Virus record (IMG/VR): IMGVR_UViG_3300009194_000006 | Span: 1-64,000 of that record | Origin: a virus | DNA length: 64,000 nt | Reading direction: 5' to 3' (one strand) | Shown: piece by piece, positions 6,667 to 20,671 of the stretch | Position numbering within the stretch: the stretch's first letter is position 1 | Layout of the letters: the number at the start of each line of letters is the position of its first letter | The notes under the pieces: generated by a model | Told to the model about the DNA's origin: nothing | Seen by the model: only the letters and a program-made list of their open reading frames with translations | The model's database searches: none | Program-made: the position numbers and the translations under genes

Positions 6667-6670
6667 CATC

Positions 6671-6747
6671 AGGAAGTTAGCTCAGTTGGCTAGAGCATTC
6701 GACCGATAATCGAAGGGTCGCTGGTTCGAGTCCAGCACTTCCTACCA
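6671..6747 (+). tRNA. tRNA-Ile (GAT), copy 2, with C33
   Basis: Acceptor AGGAAGT/ACTTCCT is perfect, D and T arms are normal and CCA is encoded. Anticodon stem TTCGA/TCGAA holds loop CCGATAA (anticodon GAT). Position 33 is C instead of the nearly universal U, so decoding may be impaired. Confidence 0.85.
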
Positions 6748-6752
6748 TTTTC

Positions 6753-6829
6753 TGGGGCTTAGCTCAGTCTGGTAGAGCATCTGCTTTGGGAGCAGAGGGT
6801 CGTAGGTTCAATTCCTGCATCCCCGACCA
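6753..6829 (+). tRNA. tRNA-Pro (TGG)
   Basis: Anticodon stem TCTGC/GCAGA with loop TTTGGGA (anticodon TGG). Acceptor TGGGGCT/ATCCCCG has one C-T mismatch. T loop TTCAATT and encoded CCA. Confidence 0.88.
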
Positions 6830-6834
6830 ATTTC

Positions 6835-6912
6835 AAGGGGGTCGTTTCCTTTAAGGAAGCACCGTATGATCCGAATCGGTTCCTGTGTAGAGTACAGGGG
6901 TTCCCTTTTTTT
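6835..6912 (+). ncRNA. Four-helix, cloverleaf-like small RNA ending in a T run
   Basis: Between two tRNAs the sequence folds as AAGGG…CCCTT enclosing three hairpins: TTTCC/GGAAG, CCG-AAT-CGG, and CCTGT/ACAGG with a 7-nt loop (GTAGAGT). A run of T follows the closing strand, as in a Rho-independent terminator. It has no CCA and no T-loop sequence, so it is not a standard tRNA. It could be a small regulatory RNA, a tRNA derivative, or an elaborate terminator. Confidence 0.45.
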
Positions 6913-6929
6913 ATTTCAATTAGTTTTGT

Positions 6930-7006
6930 TGGGGTATCGCCAAGTGGACTAAGGCATCGGGTTTTGATCCCGATATTCGAAGGTTCGAATCCTTCTGCCC
7001 CTACCA
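6930..7006 (+). tRNA. tRNA-Gln (TTG), copy 2
   Basis: The 5' part TGGGGTATCGCCAAG is the classic Gln tRNA start. Anticodon stem TCGGG/CCCGA carries loop TTTTGAT (anticodon TTG), with a good T arm and encoded CCA. The convergent ADP-ribosyltransferase gene stops on the next base. Confidence 0.93.
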
Positions 7007-7513
7007 TTATCTTTTAACTCTTTTTACTGAAAGTATCCTAGAAGTGTTAGGGTTTATTATTACTTCCTTTTCATATTTTATCGTGGAAATAACATCAGGA
7101 TCGTCCAAGAATGCAATAAAAGCTAGAGGCACAAATATAACATCGCTAGTGTTTATTTTGAAAGTGATTAAATAACCAACATCACCTAAGACCTTAGAAA
7201 AATTTTCAGCCACGGTCTTAGAATATGAACATGAACTGTACGATATACCTTTAGTGTTAGTTTTTTCTTTTTCCCGTGACGAAATTTCTTTTTTTATGGT
7301 GATCCATTCTTCTTCATCGTAGTCATCATTCCAAAAGTATACTCCACGGTAAACCGTATCGGGTATTTTCTCACGATATTCATCATTTACTTTCTTGAAG
7401 TATGAACTATTCTCTATATAGTTCAGTAAGTCATGAAACTTATTTTTATTACTGATGAATTCTTTAAATAGTTGTTGAAATTTCGTGTCAGATTCTATAT
7501 CATGTATATTCAT
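7007..7513 (-). CDS. Mono-ADP-ribosyltransferase-like protein (R-S-E type), 168 aa
   Basis: Three motifs of arginine-type ADP-ribosyltransferases appear in order: Arg in TVYRGVYF (R56), an S-x-S element in SYSSCSYSKTVAENF (about 92-105), and an E-x-E pair in KYEKEVIINP (E148, E150). Enzymes of this fold move ADP-ribose from NAD onto host proteins; T4 Alt, ModA and ModB are phage examples. The N-terminus (MNIHDIESD) is a weak match to the leader seen on other cargo genes here. The size is near a bare catalytic domain. Target unknown. A late-type TATA (CAATAAATA) lies upstream. Confidence 0.72.
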   Translation of the reverse strand: MNIHDIESDTKFQQLFKEFISNKNKFHDLLNYIENSSYFKKVNDEYREKIPDTVYRGVYFWNDDYDEEEWITIKKEISSREKEKTNTKGISYSSCSYSKTVAENFSKVLGDVGYLITFKINTSDVIFVPLAFIAFLDDPDVISTIKYEKEVIINPNTSRILSVKRVKR

Positions 7514-7540
7514 AGCTAATAAACCTTTTCTTATATTTAT

Positions 7541-7614
7541 TGAGGATTAGTGTCAGTGGCCTAACACACAGCGCTCATAACGCTGTACCACCAGTTCGAA
7601 TCTGGTATCCTCGA
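7541..7614 (+). tRNA. tRNA with CAT anticodon (Met or Ile2), no encoded CCA
   Basis: Acceptor TGAGGAT/ATCCTCG, anticodon stem CAGCG/CGCTG with loop CTCATAA (anticodon CAT), T loop TTCGAAT. The 3' end reads ACTCA, so CCA would have to be added. Initiator Met lacks support (no GGG/CCC anticodon stem); elongator Met or lysidine-modified Ile are both possible. Confidence 0.85.
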
Positions 7615-7638
7615 CTCATACCAATGGAGATAATAGAT

Positions 7639-7857
7639 ATGAAGCATCTTACTGTAGGAAAATTGAAAGAGTTGATTGAAGACGTTGATGATGATACTAT
7701 TGTCGCTGGCATTGGACATTTCGGTGAAACTCTTAATATCGAGCCAGTTGGTCTCCAAGGTGCTGTACTTAACGATAGTAAAACACGTTGGCAAGATGGT
7801 AAGAAAGTTACTGTCTTCGTACTTAATTGTGAAGATATGGGTCCAGACCCAGAATAA
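7639..7857 (+). CDS. Small acidic protein, 72 aa, unknown
   Basis: The start is chosen after GGAGATAATAGAT. The protein begins MKHLTVGKLKELIEDVDDDT and ends DMGPDPE. The pattern (L-K-x-L-I-x-x-[LV]-D-D-x-x-[IV] and later G at regular spacing) is common in small phage and plasmid proteins of unknown role. The next gene starts 8 nt downstream. Confidence 0.7.
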   Translation: MKHLTVGKLKELIEDVDDDTIVAGIGHFGETLNIEPVGLQGAVLNDSKTRWQDGKKVTVFVLNCEDMGPDPE

Positions 7858-7864
7858 GGAATAT

Positions 7865-8236
7865 ATGATAATAGAACTAGACTCAATATATCAACTTTTA
7901 GAAGAAGGACGTTTTACAACCCAAGTACCGACGATTTACATAGGTGGTGGTTCTTCTAATATGGTTAATATTCCAGACGCATTTTTTATGAATGTTAAAT
8001 TTGGACAGGATCGTATTGCTTTTGGAAAAGAGAAGTCTTATCTTGCTCTTAGTAGGACAGGATTTAACGTTTATAAAGATGAACTGTATAATGCTTATGC
8101 ACGTGGTATACAAGCTCATGGTCTTAGACCAAACCAACCATCAACCAAAAAAGAGTTTGTTGATCAGATGAATCAGTGGTATGATAATCTTGAAAATAAA
8201 TCGCTAACCGAAGCGAAGAAAAGAAAACTTATTTAG
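7865..8236 (+). CDS. Hypothetical protein, 123 aa
   Basis: The ATG at 7865 follows TAAGGAATAT. The sequence is mixed alpha/beta with a basic end (EAKKRKLI). No family was recognised. Its stop codon touches the second, degenerate tRNA-Asp-like gene. Confidence 0.7.
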   Translation: MIIELDSIYQLLEEGRFTTQVPTIYIGGGSSNMVNIPDAFFMNVKFGQDRIAFGKEKSYLALSRTGFNVYKDELYNAYARGIQAHGLRPNQPSTKKEFVDQMNQWYDNLENKSLTEAKKRKLI

Positions 8237-8311
8237 GACGTATAACTCAGTTAGTAAAGTACTACCCTGTCACGGTAGAACTCGTGAGTTCGAGCCCAGC
8301 CGGGGGAGCCA
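8236..8311 (+). tRNA. Degenerate tRNA-Asp-like sequence (GTC)
   Basis: The anticodon arm is perfect (CTACC/GGTAG, loop CTGTCAC, anticodon GTC) and the T loop TTCGAGC and CCA remain. The acceptor strands GGACGTA and CGGGGGA do not pair and the T stem keeps only two or three pairs. This is most likely a pseudo-tRNA derived from an Asp gene. Confidence 0.55.
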
Positions 8312-8329
8312 AATTAAGAGAGAAATGCT

Positions 8330-14299: not shown

Positions 14300-14352
14300 T
14301 ACCGTAGAAGCACTAAGTGAAATAAACTAACTAACATTAAGGAAAAATATAT

Positions 14353-14997
14353 ATGAATACATATGCAGAAAAAAGTGGTGACTGGCGAATGGAAAGAGGT
14401 CGCAAAACGGTTGTGAATGGATTGTTGGCTGTTGCTGGTACATTCCTCACAACAGGCATTGGTGTTTGGATCGCATCATTGTTTGGAATTACGATCACTG
14501 GTCTTGTGGGAACTATTACGTTTTTGGTCGTTATGATTGGTATGATCTTCTTGATTCAAATGAATGCCAATAACGTATTCGGTCTGCCTCTATTGCTTCT
14601 ATTTGGTGCCATTCAAGGTGTATTTGCTGGTGCATATCTAACGATGTTTTCAATGTCGTCAATCCTTTTGGCAGTAGCTGGTACTGTTGGTATTACATTT
14701 GCCTGTATGCGTTATGCAGCAACATTTAAAATGGATACGTCCAACTGGGGCATGCCACTTTTTATTATACTCTTGGTGCTAGTTGGCATTATGCTTGCCA
14801 ACCTTTGGATTGGATCTAGTCTACTTGCGACCGCATTGTCAGTTGGTATCATCGTAGTGTTTGGCGGCTTTATTCTACATGATACCCAACATGCGCTTAA
14901 GAATCCTGAAATGAGCTATATTGAATTCGCAATTGGTATGTATCTAAACATGTTCAATATTTTTATTCACCTACTATCATTGATTGGTAACGATTAA
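14353..14997 (+). CDS. Bax-inhibitor-1 family membrane protein, 214 aa
   Basis: Seven hydrophobic segments and the late signature GGFILHDTQHALKNPEMSYI… YLNMFNIFIHLLSLIG are typical of the BI-1/YccA/TMBIM family. The length equals bacterial members. Bacterial YccA binds and restrains the FtsH protease; TMBIM proteins also leak calcium or protons. In a phage it could steady the inner membrane or block FtsH action on phage proteins (inference). It begins after AAGGAAAAATATAT and is followed by a hairpin and promoter. Confidence 0.88.
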   Translation: MNTYAEKSGDWRMERGRKTVVNGLLAVAGTFLTTGIGVWIASLFGITITGLVGTITFLVVMIGMIFLIQMNANNVFGLPLLLLFGAIQGVFAGAYLTMFSMSSILLAVAGTVGITFACMRYAATFKMDTSNWGMPLFIILLVLVGIMLANLWIGSSLLATALSVGIIVVFGGFILHDTQHALKNPEMSYIEFAIGMYLNMFNIFIHLLSLIGND

Positions 14998-15004
14998 ATT
15001 ATAC

Positions 15005-15040
15005 AAGGGTGTTGCAATATGACGCAATACCCTTTATAAT
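15005..15040 (+). promoter_or_regulatory. Promoter overlapped by an 11-bp hairpin, upstream of tRNA-Cys
   Basis: TTGCAA (15012-15017), a 17-nt spacer and TATAAT (15035-15040) form a good promoter for tRNA-Cys. AAGGGTGTTGC (15006-15016) pairs with GCAATACCCTT (15024-15034), so the -35 and spacer sit in a dyad. The hairpin may terminate the upstream BI-1 transcript or be an operator. Confidence 0.6.
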
Positions 15041-15054
15041 GTTATCATAAACTG

Positions 15055-15125
15055 GCTAGTTTTGCCGAGTGGTTAGGCAGCGGATTGCAAATCCGCCTAC
15101 GAGGGTTCGATTCCCTCAACTAGCT
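15055..15125 (+). tRNA. tRNA-Cys (GCA), interrupted 3' to position 73
   Basis: Acceptor GCTAGTT/AACTAGC is perfect, anticodon stem GCGGA/TCCGC with loop TTGCAAA (anticodon GCA), T arm GAGGG/CCCTC. After T73 the sequence reads CATTT rather than CCA. The true 3' end with CCA is found about 700 nt downstream as part of a 21-nt duplication, so an insertion separated body and tail. Confidence 0.9.
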
Positions 15126-15789
15126 CATTTATAACACTCGTTATTTGGTTGAGATATTTAATTGATGTCGATTTCTCAAAGTTTTTCTGGTCTGATGTGT
15201 CTATTATGAAAAGATTAAAGTCTTTTGATTCACATAATAACTTTCTCTCATAGTCATTCTTTAAGATGTCTTTAAATTTTTTATTTCCGTATATTGCCTT
15301 ATAATGTACAATTCCATTTATTTCAAATGCCACCTTCAGTGAAGGTATTAGAATATCTAGTTCTAAACCAATAGTAGATCGATCATTAAATGAGAAATCC
15401 ATATTTGGGTATATACCCATTAGCTTTTCCTGAAGCCATAATTCAAGTTTAGAAGAGTTTGTGCCATGTAATTTATTTCTATTATTATACTTTGCGGAAC
15501 ATGATCTAGAACAAAAATGGTTTTTAGATTTTTTAAAATCTTTTTTTATTTTATATATTGTTTTATCACACTCTTTACACGACGTTTCTATTTTGAATGA
15601 CAAACTATTATTTCTACATTTTATAGAACAGTAGTTTTTTGTTCTTCCCGATTTTATCTTTGATTGTATATCATTACACGGCTGTTTGTAACTTGAATTA
15701 CATTTCATACAAATCATCGGAACTTTTTCTCTTGACATATATTGTTTTAGTATGCTATAATTTTTTATAATTTCTGGATAAGTATACAT
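15097..15789 (-). CDS. Vsr-like (EDxHD-type) homing endonuclease inserted at tRNA-Cys, 230 aa
   Basis: The N-terminal half has paired zinc knuckles (MICMKC…YCSIKC and CKEC…FCSRSC), a layout seen in phage Vsr-type homing endonucleases. The C-terminal half has the nuclease core: LELDILIPSLKVAFEINGIV then HYKA, followed by K-x5-D…LLCESKDFNLFIID. The final codons and stop come from the tRNA-Cys sequence, read on the other strand. The gene is flanked by the 21-nt tRNA duplication. It likely moves by cutting uninterrupted tRNA-Cys genes. A late-type box (GAATAAATA) lies upstream. Confidence 0.75.
   Translation of the reverse strand: MYTYPEIIKNYSILKQYMSREKVPMICMKCNSSYKQPCNDIQSKIKSGRTKNYCSIKCRNNSLSFKIETSCKECDKTIYKIKKDFKKSKNHFCSRSCSAKYNNRNKLHGTNSSKLELWLQEKLMGIYPNMDFSFNDRSTIGLELDILIPSLKVAFEINGIVHYKAIYGNKKFKDILKNDYERKLLCESKDFNLFIIDTSDQKNFEKSTSIKYLNQITSVINELVEGIEPS
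15106..15126 (+). repeat. 21-nt direct repeat, left copy (tRNA-Cys 3' end)
   Basis: The 21-nt run starting TTCGATTCCC and ending TAGCTC spans the T loop to position 74 of tRNA-Cys. An exact copy lies at 15829-15849. Together they flank the endonuclease gene, like attachment-site or target duplications. Confidence 0.9.
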
Positions 15790-15828
15790 AATTCTTTCTA
15801 GTTGAAATATTAATGTCTTTAGTATTTA

Positions 15829-15849
15829 TTCGATTCCCTCAACTAGCTC
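15829..15849 (+). repeat. 21-nt direct repeat, right copy, with CCA
   Basis: An exact copy of 15106-15126, followed by CA so that the tRNA end reads T-CCA. This is probably the ancestral 3' end of tRNA-Cys displaced by the insertion. Confidence 0.9.
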
Positions 15850-15870
15850 CAAACATCGAGGGGTAATATC

Positions 15871-16047
15871 ATGGAAAAGCAAATGGTCGAAGAACTTCGT
15901 AACGGTAACAAAATCTACAAAGTGCAAGACAACCATGGTACACCCAGATACCGTGTGAAGCGCGGCAAACATTGGATAGGTAAAACTCTGGATGGTGGGT
16001 ATATTTCTGCACGAGCAGCACGTCGGTTTGGTGAGGCAAATGGATAA
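15871..16047 (+). CDS. Cassette copy A, gene 1: 58-aa basic protein
   Basis: ATG at 15871 follows GAGGGGTAATATC. The sequence ends RGKHWIGKTLDGGYISARAA…G, nearly identical to the protein at 20135 (TPRYRV-RGKHWIGKTLDGGY). The second gene starts within its last codons (ATGGATAA overlap). Basic and Gly-rich; function unknown. Confidence 0.7.
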   Translation: MEKQMVEELRNGNKIYKVQDNHGTPRYRVKRGKHWIGKTLDGGYISARAARRFGEANG

Positions 16048-16180
16048 GAAAATACGGAGAAAATCATTTAATCGTGTTCGTATGGAACGGGCATTAAAGT
16101 CGGGGAAACCAATTCATATTCCTCCGGGTCTAAGTCGGAAAGAACTTAGAAACTTTATTATCAATTCTGGTAAAAAATAA
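16040..16180 (+). CDS. Cassette copy A, gene 2: 46-aa basic protein
   Basis: It overlaps the upstream gene by 8 nt. RMERALKSGKPIHIPPGLSR then KELRNFI matches the first half of the 117-aa protein at 20318 (RMSEALQSGSPTIIPNNMNR then ESMREFI). Here it is a separate gene ending in GKK. Confidence 0.65.
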   Translation: MDKKIRRKSFNRVRMERALKSGKPIHIPPGLSRKELRNFIINSGKK

Positions 16181-16204
16181 ATTGTTATAAAAGAGGAAGG
16201 TAGT

Positions 16205-16411
16205 ATGCGAAACAAAGCCGTTGAACTAATGGTACGTTGTCAATTTAGTATCCCTGATACTACTGAAGTTTCAGTTAAGTGTCTTGGGAGTACTAACAGT
16301 AATTATGATTTTGAAGTTGAATGGTGGGATGACATGAATGTTCGATATCAATCGAATTTTACATTACCCCATATTGAATATGTAGAAGACACTCAATTTG
16401 CAACGTCTTAA
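16205..16411 (+). CDS. Cassette copy A, gene 3: 68-aa protein
   Basis: Starts after AGAGGAAGGTAGT. It matches the second half of the 117-aa protein at 20318 (NKAVE-MVR-QF-IP then FEVEW). In this copy it has its own start; in the other copy it is fused. Function unknown. Confidence 0.7.
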   Translation: MRNKAVELMVRCQFSIPDTTEVSVKCLGSTNSNYDFEVEWWDDMNVRYQSNFTLPHIEYVEDTQFATS

Positions 16412-17313: not shown

Positions 17314-17486
17314 ATGCCATCTCCTTTAAATACTAATATTATTTATCTCAAATAATATACAGATTGTAATGATAGACTGGGTATGAAACAGTTAACATAA
17401 TTATACACTGTTTACCCATTATTATAACTTTTATATCACATATAAATATTATTACTAAATAATTAAGAATAACTATTACAAAAACA

Positions 17487-18779
17487 ATGATTTTAGTAGA
17501 AAGACACCAAATAGACAAAAAGCACCCATCCTTCAAGGAATGCGATTTCTTGAGTTATATAAGCAAAAACCTATATAATTCAGCTATCTATCATATACGT
17601 CAGTTCTATTTCAATAACAACACTTTTCTTAATCCTAAAGTAGTAAATGGTAAAACTATAAACTACTGGGTATTTGATAAAACCCAATTATATCACGAAC
17701 TCAAGGACACGAAAGAATTCCGTACCAACGAGCACCCCGAATACAACGGATATTCATGTAACACCAAAATCCTAAAACAAACTATGATACAAGTAAGTAG
17801 AGTATTCAAGGGATACAAGAAAGCACTAAAGACGTACTCTAATAACCCATCAAAGTTTACAGGAAGACCTAAATTGCCAACTTATAAACAAAAGAATGGT
17901 AGAAATGAAGTGACAGTGCCAAAAGAAGCTATCTCTTTTGTTAAACACAAAGGTTATGCTAAAATAGCAAATACGGACATATTTGTTAAATTAGTAAATG
18001 TAACCGAAGAGACAACAAAAGAAATAAAGATAGTACCACGAGCCAGCCATTATGAAATATTGGTTAGCTATGAAGCACCAGAAGCACAATTAAAACCGCA
18101 AAGCGGCAAACTAGCAGGTATAGATATTGGATTGAATAATTTAGTGGCGTTATCTTCAAATGATATAGCTATGAAGCCATCTCTCATTAACGGACGACCA
18201 CTAAAATCAATCAACCAATACTATAATAAGAAAGCTGCTAAAATGAAGTCCTTATTGCCGAAAGATGTTTTTTGGAGTAAGGCACTTAGTCAATTGACTA
18301 GGAAGAGAAACAACAAAGTTCAAACTGAAATGCACAACATATCTACATATATTGTCAATGAATTAATCAAACACAATATAGATACATTGATAGTAGGTAA
18401 TAATAAAGGAATGAAACAAGGAATTGGTATTGGTCGAAAAAATAACCAAAATTTTGTGTCAATTCCTTTCCATAAGTTACGTAGGATGTTAGAATACAAA
18501 TGCAAAAAGGCAGGTATCCATTACATAGAGACAGAGGAAAGTTATACCAGCAAGTGCAGTTTCCTTGATATGGAAGATATGCGTAAGCAGTCAGTATATA
18601 AAGGGAATAGAACACATAGGGGCTTGTTTATTGACTCGAATGGTAATGAGATCAATGCTGACTTGAATGGAAGTTTGAACATAATAAGAAAAGTAGCTGG
18701 AAATGCATATTTTGTTTATCAAAATACGTCTGATCTAGTAGAGGGCTATGCCGTTAGTCCATTTAAAGTCACTGTCTAG
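17487..18779 (+). CDS. tnpB: TnpB (OrfB) RNA-guided nuclease family protein, 430 aa
   Basis: It has the TnpB layout: an N-terminal helix-turn-helix and central domain, then a RuvC-like nuclease split into GIDIGLNNLVAL (D about 213) and NADLNGSLNI (D about 392). The usual catalytic E segment is replaced by IVGNNKGMKQ, and a Glu pair sits later in TEESYTSKCS. This resembles TnpB forms with a rearranged active site. The zinc-ribbon cysteines are almost gone (one Cys after TSK). TnpB uses an RNA from the element's right end to cut DNA. In a phage it may act like a homing endonuclease. Confidence 0.88.
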   Translation: MILVERHQIDKKHPSFKECDFLSYISKNLYNSAIYHIRQFYFNNNTFLNPKVVNGKTINYWVFDKTQLYHELKDTKEFRTNEHPEYNGYSCNTKILKQTMIQVSRVFKGYKKALKTYSNNPSKFTGRPKLPTYKQKNGRNEVTVPKEAISFVKHKGYAKIANTDIFVKLVNVTEETTKEIKIVPRASHYEILVSYEAPEAQLKPQSGKLAGIDIGLNNLVALSSNDIAMKPSLINGRPLKSINQYYNKKAAKMKSLLPKDVFWSKALSQLTRKRNNKVQTEMHNISTYIVNELIKHNIDTLIVGNNKGMKQGIGIGRKNNQNFVSIPFHKLRRMLEYKCKKAGIHYIETEESYTSKCSFLDMEDMRKQSVYKGNRTHRGLFIDSNGNEINADLNGSLNIIRKVAGNAYFVYQNTSDLVEGYAVSPFKVTV

Positions 18780-18837
18780 TAATAGAATATACTTTATAAA
18801 GCAATTTGATATAATTTATATATTGAATTTCAAACGG

Positions 18838-20134: not shown

Positions 20135-20311
20135 ATGAATAAAACATTGATCAAAACTTTATCCAATGGTAACCATATCTATAAATTTACCGATGGACAT
20201 GGCACACCCCGTTATCGTGTTCTTCGTGGGAAGCATTGGATCGGTAAGACTCTAGATGGTGGATACATTTCTGCACGTGCTGCAAAGAATTTTGCAATGA
20301 AAAACGGATAA
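20135..20311 (+). CDS. Cassette copy B, gene 1: 58-aa basic protein
   Basis: Paralogue of the gene at 15871, same length, with the C-terminal half almost identical (GTPRYRVLRGKHWIGKTLDG then GYISARAAKNF). The N-terminal half has diverged. Followed 6 nt later by the fused second gene. Confidence 0.7.
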   Translation: MNKTLIKTLSNGNHIYKFTDGHGTPRYRVLRGKHWIGKTLDGGYISARAAKNFAMKNG

Positions 20312-20317
20312 TAATAT

Positions 20318-20671
20318 ATGTCTGAAGCACCCTTTGAAAAACACCGTATGTCTGAAGCTCTACAAAGTGGAAGTCCTACGATAATTCCAAATAACATGAA
20401 TAGAGAGTCAATGAGAGAATTCATTTTAGATTCTAACAACCACACAAATGAAGAGGTAGGTGTTATGAAAAATAAAGCCGTTGAAGCTATGGTCCGAGTA
20501 CAGTTCAATATTCCAGAAGATACCCAAGTGACTGTGAAGTGTATGGCGCGTGTAGATAATATGTTTGAATTTGAAGTTGAATGGATGGACGATGATAATA
20601 TCCTTTATCAATGCCCTGTGAAACTTCCTCTGATCTCTTATACTGAAGATACAAGCTTTGCATGCTCTTAA
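20318..20671 (+). CDS. Cassette copy B, genes 2 and 3 fused: 117 aa
   Basis: Residues 1-45 match the 46-aa protein at 16040 and residues 50-117 match the 68-aa protein at 16205. The stop codon between them is absent and the linker is DSNNHTNEEVGV. A ribosome site (GAAGAGGTAGGTGTT) survives before the internal Met (20465), so the second part may also be made alone. Confidence 0.7.
   Translation: MSEAPFEKHRMSEALQSGSPTIIPNNMNRESMREFILDSNNHTNEEVGVMKNKAVEAMVRVQFNIPEDTQVTVKCMARVDNMFEFEVEWMDDDNILYQCPVKLPLISYTEDTSFACS

Follow-up and report, generated by a model that had tools for sequence, protein, structure and literature searches.

The window analyzed here comprises the first 64 kb of a 108,833-bp IMG/VR record, which is possibly a partial genome. 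Between two plus-strand genes encoding proteins of 214 and 58 amino acids, it carries a tRNA-Cys gene and, on the opposite strand, the ORF of a predicted endonuclease, which overlaps the 3' part of the tRNA gene. The features of this locus are compiled in Table 1.

Table 1. Features of the tRNA-Cys locus. Positions are those of the window; 3300021979_000003 denotes the related phage genome IMGVR_UViG_3300021979_000003, and L001 refers to its locus.
Feature	Position	Strand	Evidence and remarks
Left neighbor gene, 214 aa	14353-14997	+	74% identical to L001:4208-4852; also left of the empty site
Putative tRNA-Cys promoter, TTGCAA-17-TATAAT	15012-15040	+	Consensus scan only; similar sequence upstream of the empty site (alignment with 3300021979_000003)
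tRNA-Cys(GCA), complete to nucleotide 74, no encoded CCA	15055-15126	+	ARAGORN, Rfam, fold
ORF of predicted EDxHD (Vsr-fold) endonuclease, 230 aa	15097-15789	-	Profile, alignment, structure model
Left copy of the 21-nt repeat (extra tRNA 3' end completing the tRNA)	15106-15126	+	Exact repeat; followed by non-native sequence compared with 3300021979_000003
Unique part of the insertion, 702 nt	15127-15828		26.1% GC; absent from 3300021979_000003
Perfect sigma-70-type consensus promoter inside the insert, TTGACA-18-TATAAT, TG before the -10 box	15732-15761	+	Sequence match
Right copy of the 21-nt repeat (native tRNA 3' end)	15829-15849	+	Exact repeat; runs into sequence matching 3300021979_000003
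CA finishing the native CCA	15850-15851	+	Window sequence; same in 3300021979_000003
Right neighbor gene, 58 aa	15871-16047	+	93% identical in L001; directly after tRNA-Cys at the empty site

The 21-mer TTCGATTCCCTCAACTAGCTC, which corresponds to positions 54-74 of tRNA-Cys, is present in two exact copies 723 nt apart and is absent elsewhere on the plus strand of the 108,833-bp record. For the 3' ends of the 13 other tRNAs called in the same record, no second copies were detected. The repeat is not merely the conserved T-arm motif, since it contains the acceptor-stem strand that pairs with the 5' end of this particular tRNA. The insertion point is located on the 5' side of the T-loop, before T54. 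Because the insert is flanked on the left and on the right by the last 21 nucleotides of tRNA-Cys, the tRNA was left whole: positions 15055-15125 reached 63.4 bits with the Rfam tRNA model, and the left tRNA-Cys folds in a tRNA-like manner (-29.6 kcal/mol, z -3.9). A self-splicing intron was ruled out, as the whole tRNA precedes the insert; an Rfam search over positions 1-22000 returned tRNAs only and no match to an intron family.

Downstream of the left copy the sequence reads ATTT, whereas CA follows the right copy, so that only the latter ends in CCA. This terminus is encoded in 11 of the 13 other called tRNAs, and the tRNA-Glu at 1004 ends in GCC followed by A, which also completes a CCA. 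The host CCA-adding enzyme probably supplies the CCA of the left tRNA-Cys. Other phages, such as T4, also have tRNAs whose CCA is not encoded. In the same window, tRNA-Met(CAT) at 7541-7615 shows no CCA directly after its acceptor stem; it continues with GACTCATACCA, and ACCA is found a few bases downstream. Sequences resembling tRNAs but not called by ARAGORN are a Val(TAC)-like sequence at 631-705, which has a partial Rfam match and acceptor strands that appear mismatched, and a degenerate Asp-like sequence at about 8235-8312.

Via the 58-aa gene, a related phage genome was found (IMGVR_UViG_3300021979_000003, 239,090 bp; L001/G001), which harbors an uninterrupted tRNA-Cys with CCA flanked by the same two genes. 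According to blastn, the window record and this relative are largely collinear, the main blocks being about 66-90% identical. The left flank of the insertion (14339-15126) aligns with G001 6668-7450 and the right flank (15829-16315) with G001 7430-7916. Since the flanks overlap in the relative by exactly the 21-nt repeat, one unit of 723 bp was added, of which 702 nt are the insert proper and the remainder is one copy of the repeat. The sequence past the right copy matches the relative, which identifies the right copy as native and the left copy as the extra one. A chance repeat was ruled out as well, given that the 21-mer is unique to the two sites and equals the overlap of the flanks at the empty site. 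A relative of the 230-aa ORF was not found in IMGVR_UViG_3300021979_000003. An earlier note on this DNA had described the exact duplication, with CCA completed at the right copy, next to a left tRNA that is still foldable, and had suggested looking for an uninterrupted tRNA-Cys with CCA in related phages. Each of the points described is borne out, such an empty site exists, and the relative without the endonuclease gene carries no duplication of the 21 nt.

The acceptor stem reads GCTAGTT/AACTAGC in the window phage versus GCCGGTT/AACCGGC in the relative. As both copies of the repeat carry the window version, the duplication should be younger than these differences, unless gene conversion equalized the copies later. 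So far, the occupied and the empty allele are each represented by a single case. Searches with the protein, the exact tRNA end, and a degenerate tRNA-Cys pattern retrieved no further occupied or empty alleles in viral contigs beyond IMGVR_UViG_3300021979_000003, and none were found in genome contigs or plasmids either. Further downstream, the window differs from the relative by a second insertion (17398-18835) with an IS605-type tnpB-like gene of the RNA-guided TnpB family (17487-18779); it was checked for a flanking duplication, and none was seen. The 58-aa gene and its right-hand neighborhood (15901-16332) have a diverged copy approximately 4.3 kb downstream (20165-20592, 68-74% DNA identity).

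The insert consists almost wholly of the nuclease ORF. Its GC content is lower than that of all 2,163 sampled 702-nt stretches of the 109-kb record (minimum 26.8%), and from its composition it looks like recent foreign DNA. The consensus promoter inside the insert faces rightward to the displaced 58-aa gene and is the sole 12/12 match in the 109-kb record; among simulated inserts of equal composition, such a perfect promoter occurred in 0.18%. It may re-supply the transcription that was cut off by the insertion. The late-promoter motif TATAAATA was searched for and was not enriched.

The minus-strand ORF ends within the tRNA gene. Read antisense and in frame, the 21-nt repeat makes up codons 222-228, and codons 229 and 230 as well as the TAG stop codon are located further inside the tRNA, so that residues 222-230 and the stop are all antisense tRNA sequence. 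The protein matches the phage endonuclease family phrog_559 (E 1.3e-9) and is 41% identical over 78 aa to F-LimVII of Vibrio phage YC. By itself, it remained below significance against Pfam and PDB, and the link to its family comes via family profiles. With a profile of the nuclease domain built from the window protein and nine viral relatives, the only convincing solved structure was 3r3p, annotated as "mobile intron protein" (E 4.9e-8), which we take to be the catalytic domain of the EDxHD homing endonuclease I-Bth0305I. Six of the nine relatives match the Pfam family Vsr. The AlphaFold2 model is confident for the nuclease domain only, and with this partly confident model the best PDB match in Foldseek was Vsr (1cw0, probability 0.95, E 0.04). 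The alignment points to E116, D145, H162, and D179 as candidate active-site residues; H162 occurs in an HY form that is common to two staphylococcal phage relatives. The N-terminal half comprises two CxxC...CxxxC modules (residues 27-97) with a putative role in DNA binding. Ochrobactrum phage OC encodes a protein that shares them, with 31% identity over 113 residues, but has a different C-terminus. The last predicted helix (206-224) extends three residues into the tRNA-derived sequence, and the nuclease domain would thus end almost exactly at the junction; most of the long relatives have a further C-terminal stretch, which is missing from the 230-aa protein. Taken from profiles and the model, the protein is a predicted EDxHD (Vsr-fold) endonuclease of the homing type, and cleavage is predicted as well.

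Neither the 108.8-kb record, which is possibly partial, nor the 239-kb relative contains a match to PF00589 or PF00239, that is, no tyrosine or serine recombinase was found. The earlier note had proposed that a Vsr-like zinc-knuckle endonuclease lies on the opposite strand, that its last codons and stop are tRNA sequence, and that an integrase is absent; the Cys-rich modules, the profile search, the Vsr matches of the relatives, the Foldseek result, the reading frame, and the recombinase search agree with this description. A flanking direct repeat over a tRNA was absent from all 21 related endonuclease loci inspected, among which one phage is counted twice; this argues against the duplication of tRNA ends being a habit of the family. 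A repeated tRNA 3' end was not found in the surroundings of T4 segB either, and the open-access literature searched yielded no description of a tRNA 3' end duplicated by an endonuclease gene. Among the loci inspected, the uncultured phage LR745208 (L026:1824-3066) encodes a double-HNH endonuclease with similar Cys motifs, which runs antisense into a tRNA 3' end; this tRNA keeps its CCA, the endonuclease has the C-terminus ...DRTGIEPVSTG, and no flanking duplication was detected. In the crAss-like phage cr1_1 (L027:1720-3140), an HNH endonuclease gene is located between two ORFs annotated as dUTPase, possibly a split gene or an intron.

Our preferred reading, which we regard as probable, is that a free-standing gene for an EDxHD homing-type endonuclease invaded tRNA-Cys in a large tailed phage, whereby the tRNA remained complete to nucleotide 74 by means of the extra 21 nt and the native CCA end was pushed 723 bp downstream. 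In homing, an allele lacking the gene is cut by the enzyme, and the gene-bearing copy then serves as the template for repair (PMC2988022). At the present locus, the enzyme would cut the uninterrupted tRNA-Cys allele of a co-infecting relative near T54, and repair from the occupied genome would copy the insert, which would amount to intron-less homing. The sparing of the tRNA would make the insertion tolerable. The first insertion probably combined pairing at tRNA-Cys on one side with illegitimate joining at the cut on the opposite side; alternatively, the donor may already have carried the extra tRNA end.

The identity of the two copies has a consequence for the presumed target. Every stretch of up to 22 bp of the empty site survives in the occupied allele, and the shortest sequence destroyed is the 23-mer made up of the repeat and one flanking base on either side. 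Insertion would therefore abolish a target only if the latter spanned the repeat and measured 23 bp or more; with a target of 22 bp or less, the donor itself would remain cleavable. Provided that the enzyme acts at this locus and that the donor is protected in the usual manner, its target must, as deduced from the two alleles, be at least 23 bp long and span the tRNA 3' end. Such a length is plausible for the EDxHD family, because the target of I-Bth0305I covers nearly 60 bp (the family is described in PMC3943268). Distant targets are common for free-standing endonucleases (PMC2988022), and a distant target site would be the alternative to a spanning one.

The geometry of the locus also fits that of tRNA-targeting integrases, in which an identical block reaches from the T-loop to the 3' end, the tRNA is rebuilt by the copy of the element, and the native end is displaced downstream; identical copies are moreover consistent with conservative recombination. 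The 723 bp could accordingly be a minimal or decayed satellite-type element integrated by a tyrosine recombinase acting in trans (from the host, a satellite, or another phage), the repeats representing attL and attR and the endonuclease being cargo. We judge this to be quite unlikely, since the insert, the possibly partial 108.8-kb record, and the 239-kb relative are free of detectable integrases, the insert offers no room for a recombinase beside the nuclease ORF, and accessory att arms were not seen. Recombination among phages is heavy, and two phage genomes may also have recombined at a shared tRNA-Cys, so that a donor tRNA and the endonuclease gene downstream of it were joined to the tRNA 3' end of the recipient while the endonuclease had no role in the event. 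The arrangement in LR745208, with an endonuclease gene antisense into an intact tRNA 3' end, would be a plausible layout of such a donor. Passive capture nevertheless appears unlikely to us in view of the clean insertion into an otherwise collinear region, and an active role of the endonuclease is the simpler reading because genes of this class spread through cleavage of their target.

It is highly improbable that a metagenome assembler created the locus by joining two molecules via the shared 21-mer. The sequence is an IMG/VR contig, the occupied allele was seen in no other contig, and 21 is a common smallest k-mer size of assemblers. However, larger k values are normal for final contigs, and a separate molecule with the exact tRNA-Cys 3' end of this phage plus the endonuclease would have been needed. 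In addition, the reading frame stays open across the left junction, and the last helix predicted for the protein reaches three residues into the tRNA sequence.

The proposed insertion of a homing-type endonuclease gene, although a single case, suggests that providing a new 3' end and thereby sparing the tRNA, a feature commonly attributed to integrases, may also accompany endonuclease-driven insertion in phages. Repeats of tRNA ends alone are consequently no proof of an island made by an integrase. Endonuclease genes would have a route into conserved tRNA genes without an intron, and the identical copies provide a sharp prediction of the target length. A more general scenario, which we put forward tentatively and consider rather doubtful, is that the endonuclease gene invades phage tRNA genes in the style of an integrase without having one: it would carry or regenerate the tRNA 3' end, draw its C-terminal codons and stop from the tRNA, and recognize a long target spanning the tRNA 3' end.

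Several known systems share part of these features. Tyrosine-integrase elements in tRNA genes likewise have a block of identity from the T-loop to the 3' end and restore the tRNA with the copy of the element, whereas here no integrase was found and the insert is a single nuclease gene. The EDxHD homing endonucleases, including I-Bth0305I and the phage F-Lim-type enzymes, belong to the same family as the 230-aa protein according to profile and fold; they are encoded by phages and possess extra DNA-binding modules, which are putative in our case. I-Bth0305I is involved in group I intron homing, in contrast to the free-standing 230-aa protein encoded in a tRNA gene, and the phage EDxHD relatives found are mostly about 490-670 aa long and lack flanking repeats over a tRNA. 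SegB of T4 is similar in being encoded by a free-standing endonuclease gene among phage tRNA genes, and it promotes the inheritance of the tRNA region (PMC2988022). It is, however, a GIY-YIG enzyme, and its gene lies between intact tRNA genes with no tRNA 3' end repeated around it. The closest precedent are mobile ORFs in fungal mitochondria with duplicated gene 3' ends, which are described for atp6 of Allomyces, atp6, atp9, cox2, and nad3 of Glomus, and atp9 of Rhizopus (PMC3630166). As at the tRNA-Cys locus, an endonuclease ORF resides in a host gene, a duplicate 3' end supplied by the proximal edge of the insert completes this gene, and the native 3' end has moved to a position beyond the ORF (PMC3630166). 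The fungal ORFs target mitochondrial protein genes, and the nucleases of Glomus are of the LAGLIDADG or GIY-YIG type, whereas the target here is a phage tRNA gene and the nuclease is an EDxHD enzyme encoded antisense. The inserted 3' end of the fungal elements is clearly divergent from the native one and may also protect the donor (PMC3630166), in contrast to the identical copies of the phage locus. The shared arrangement suggests a convergence between the phage insertion and the mobile ORFs of fungal mitochondria.
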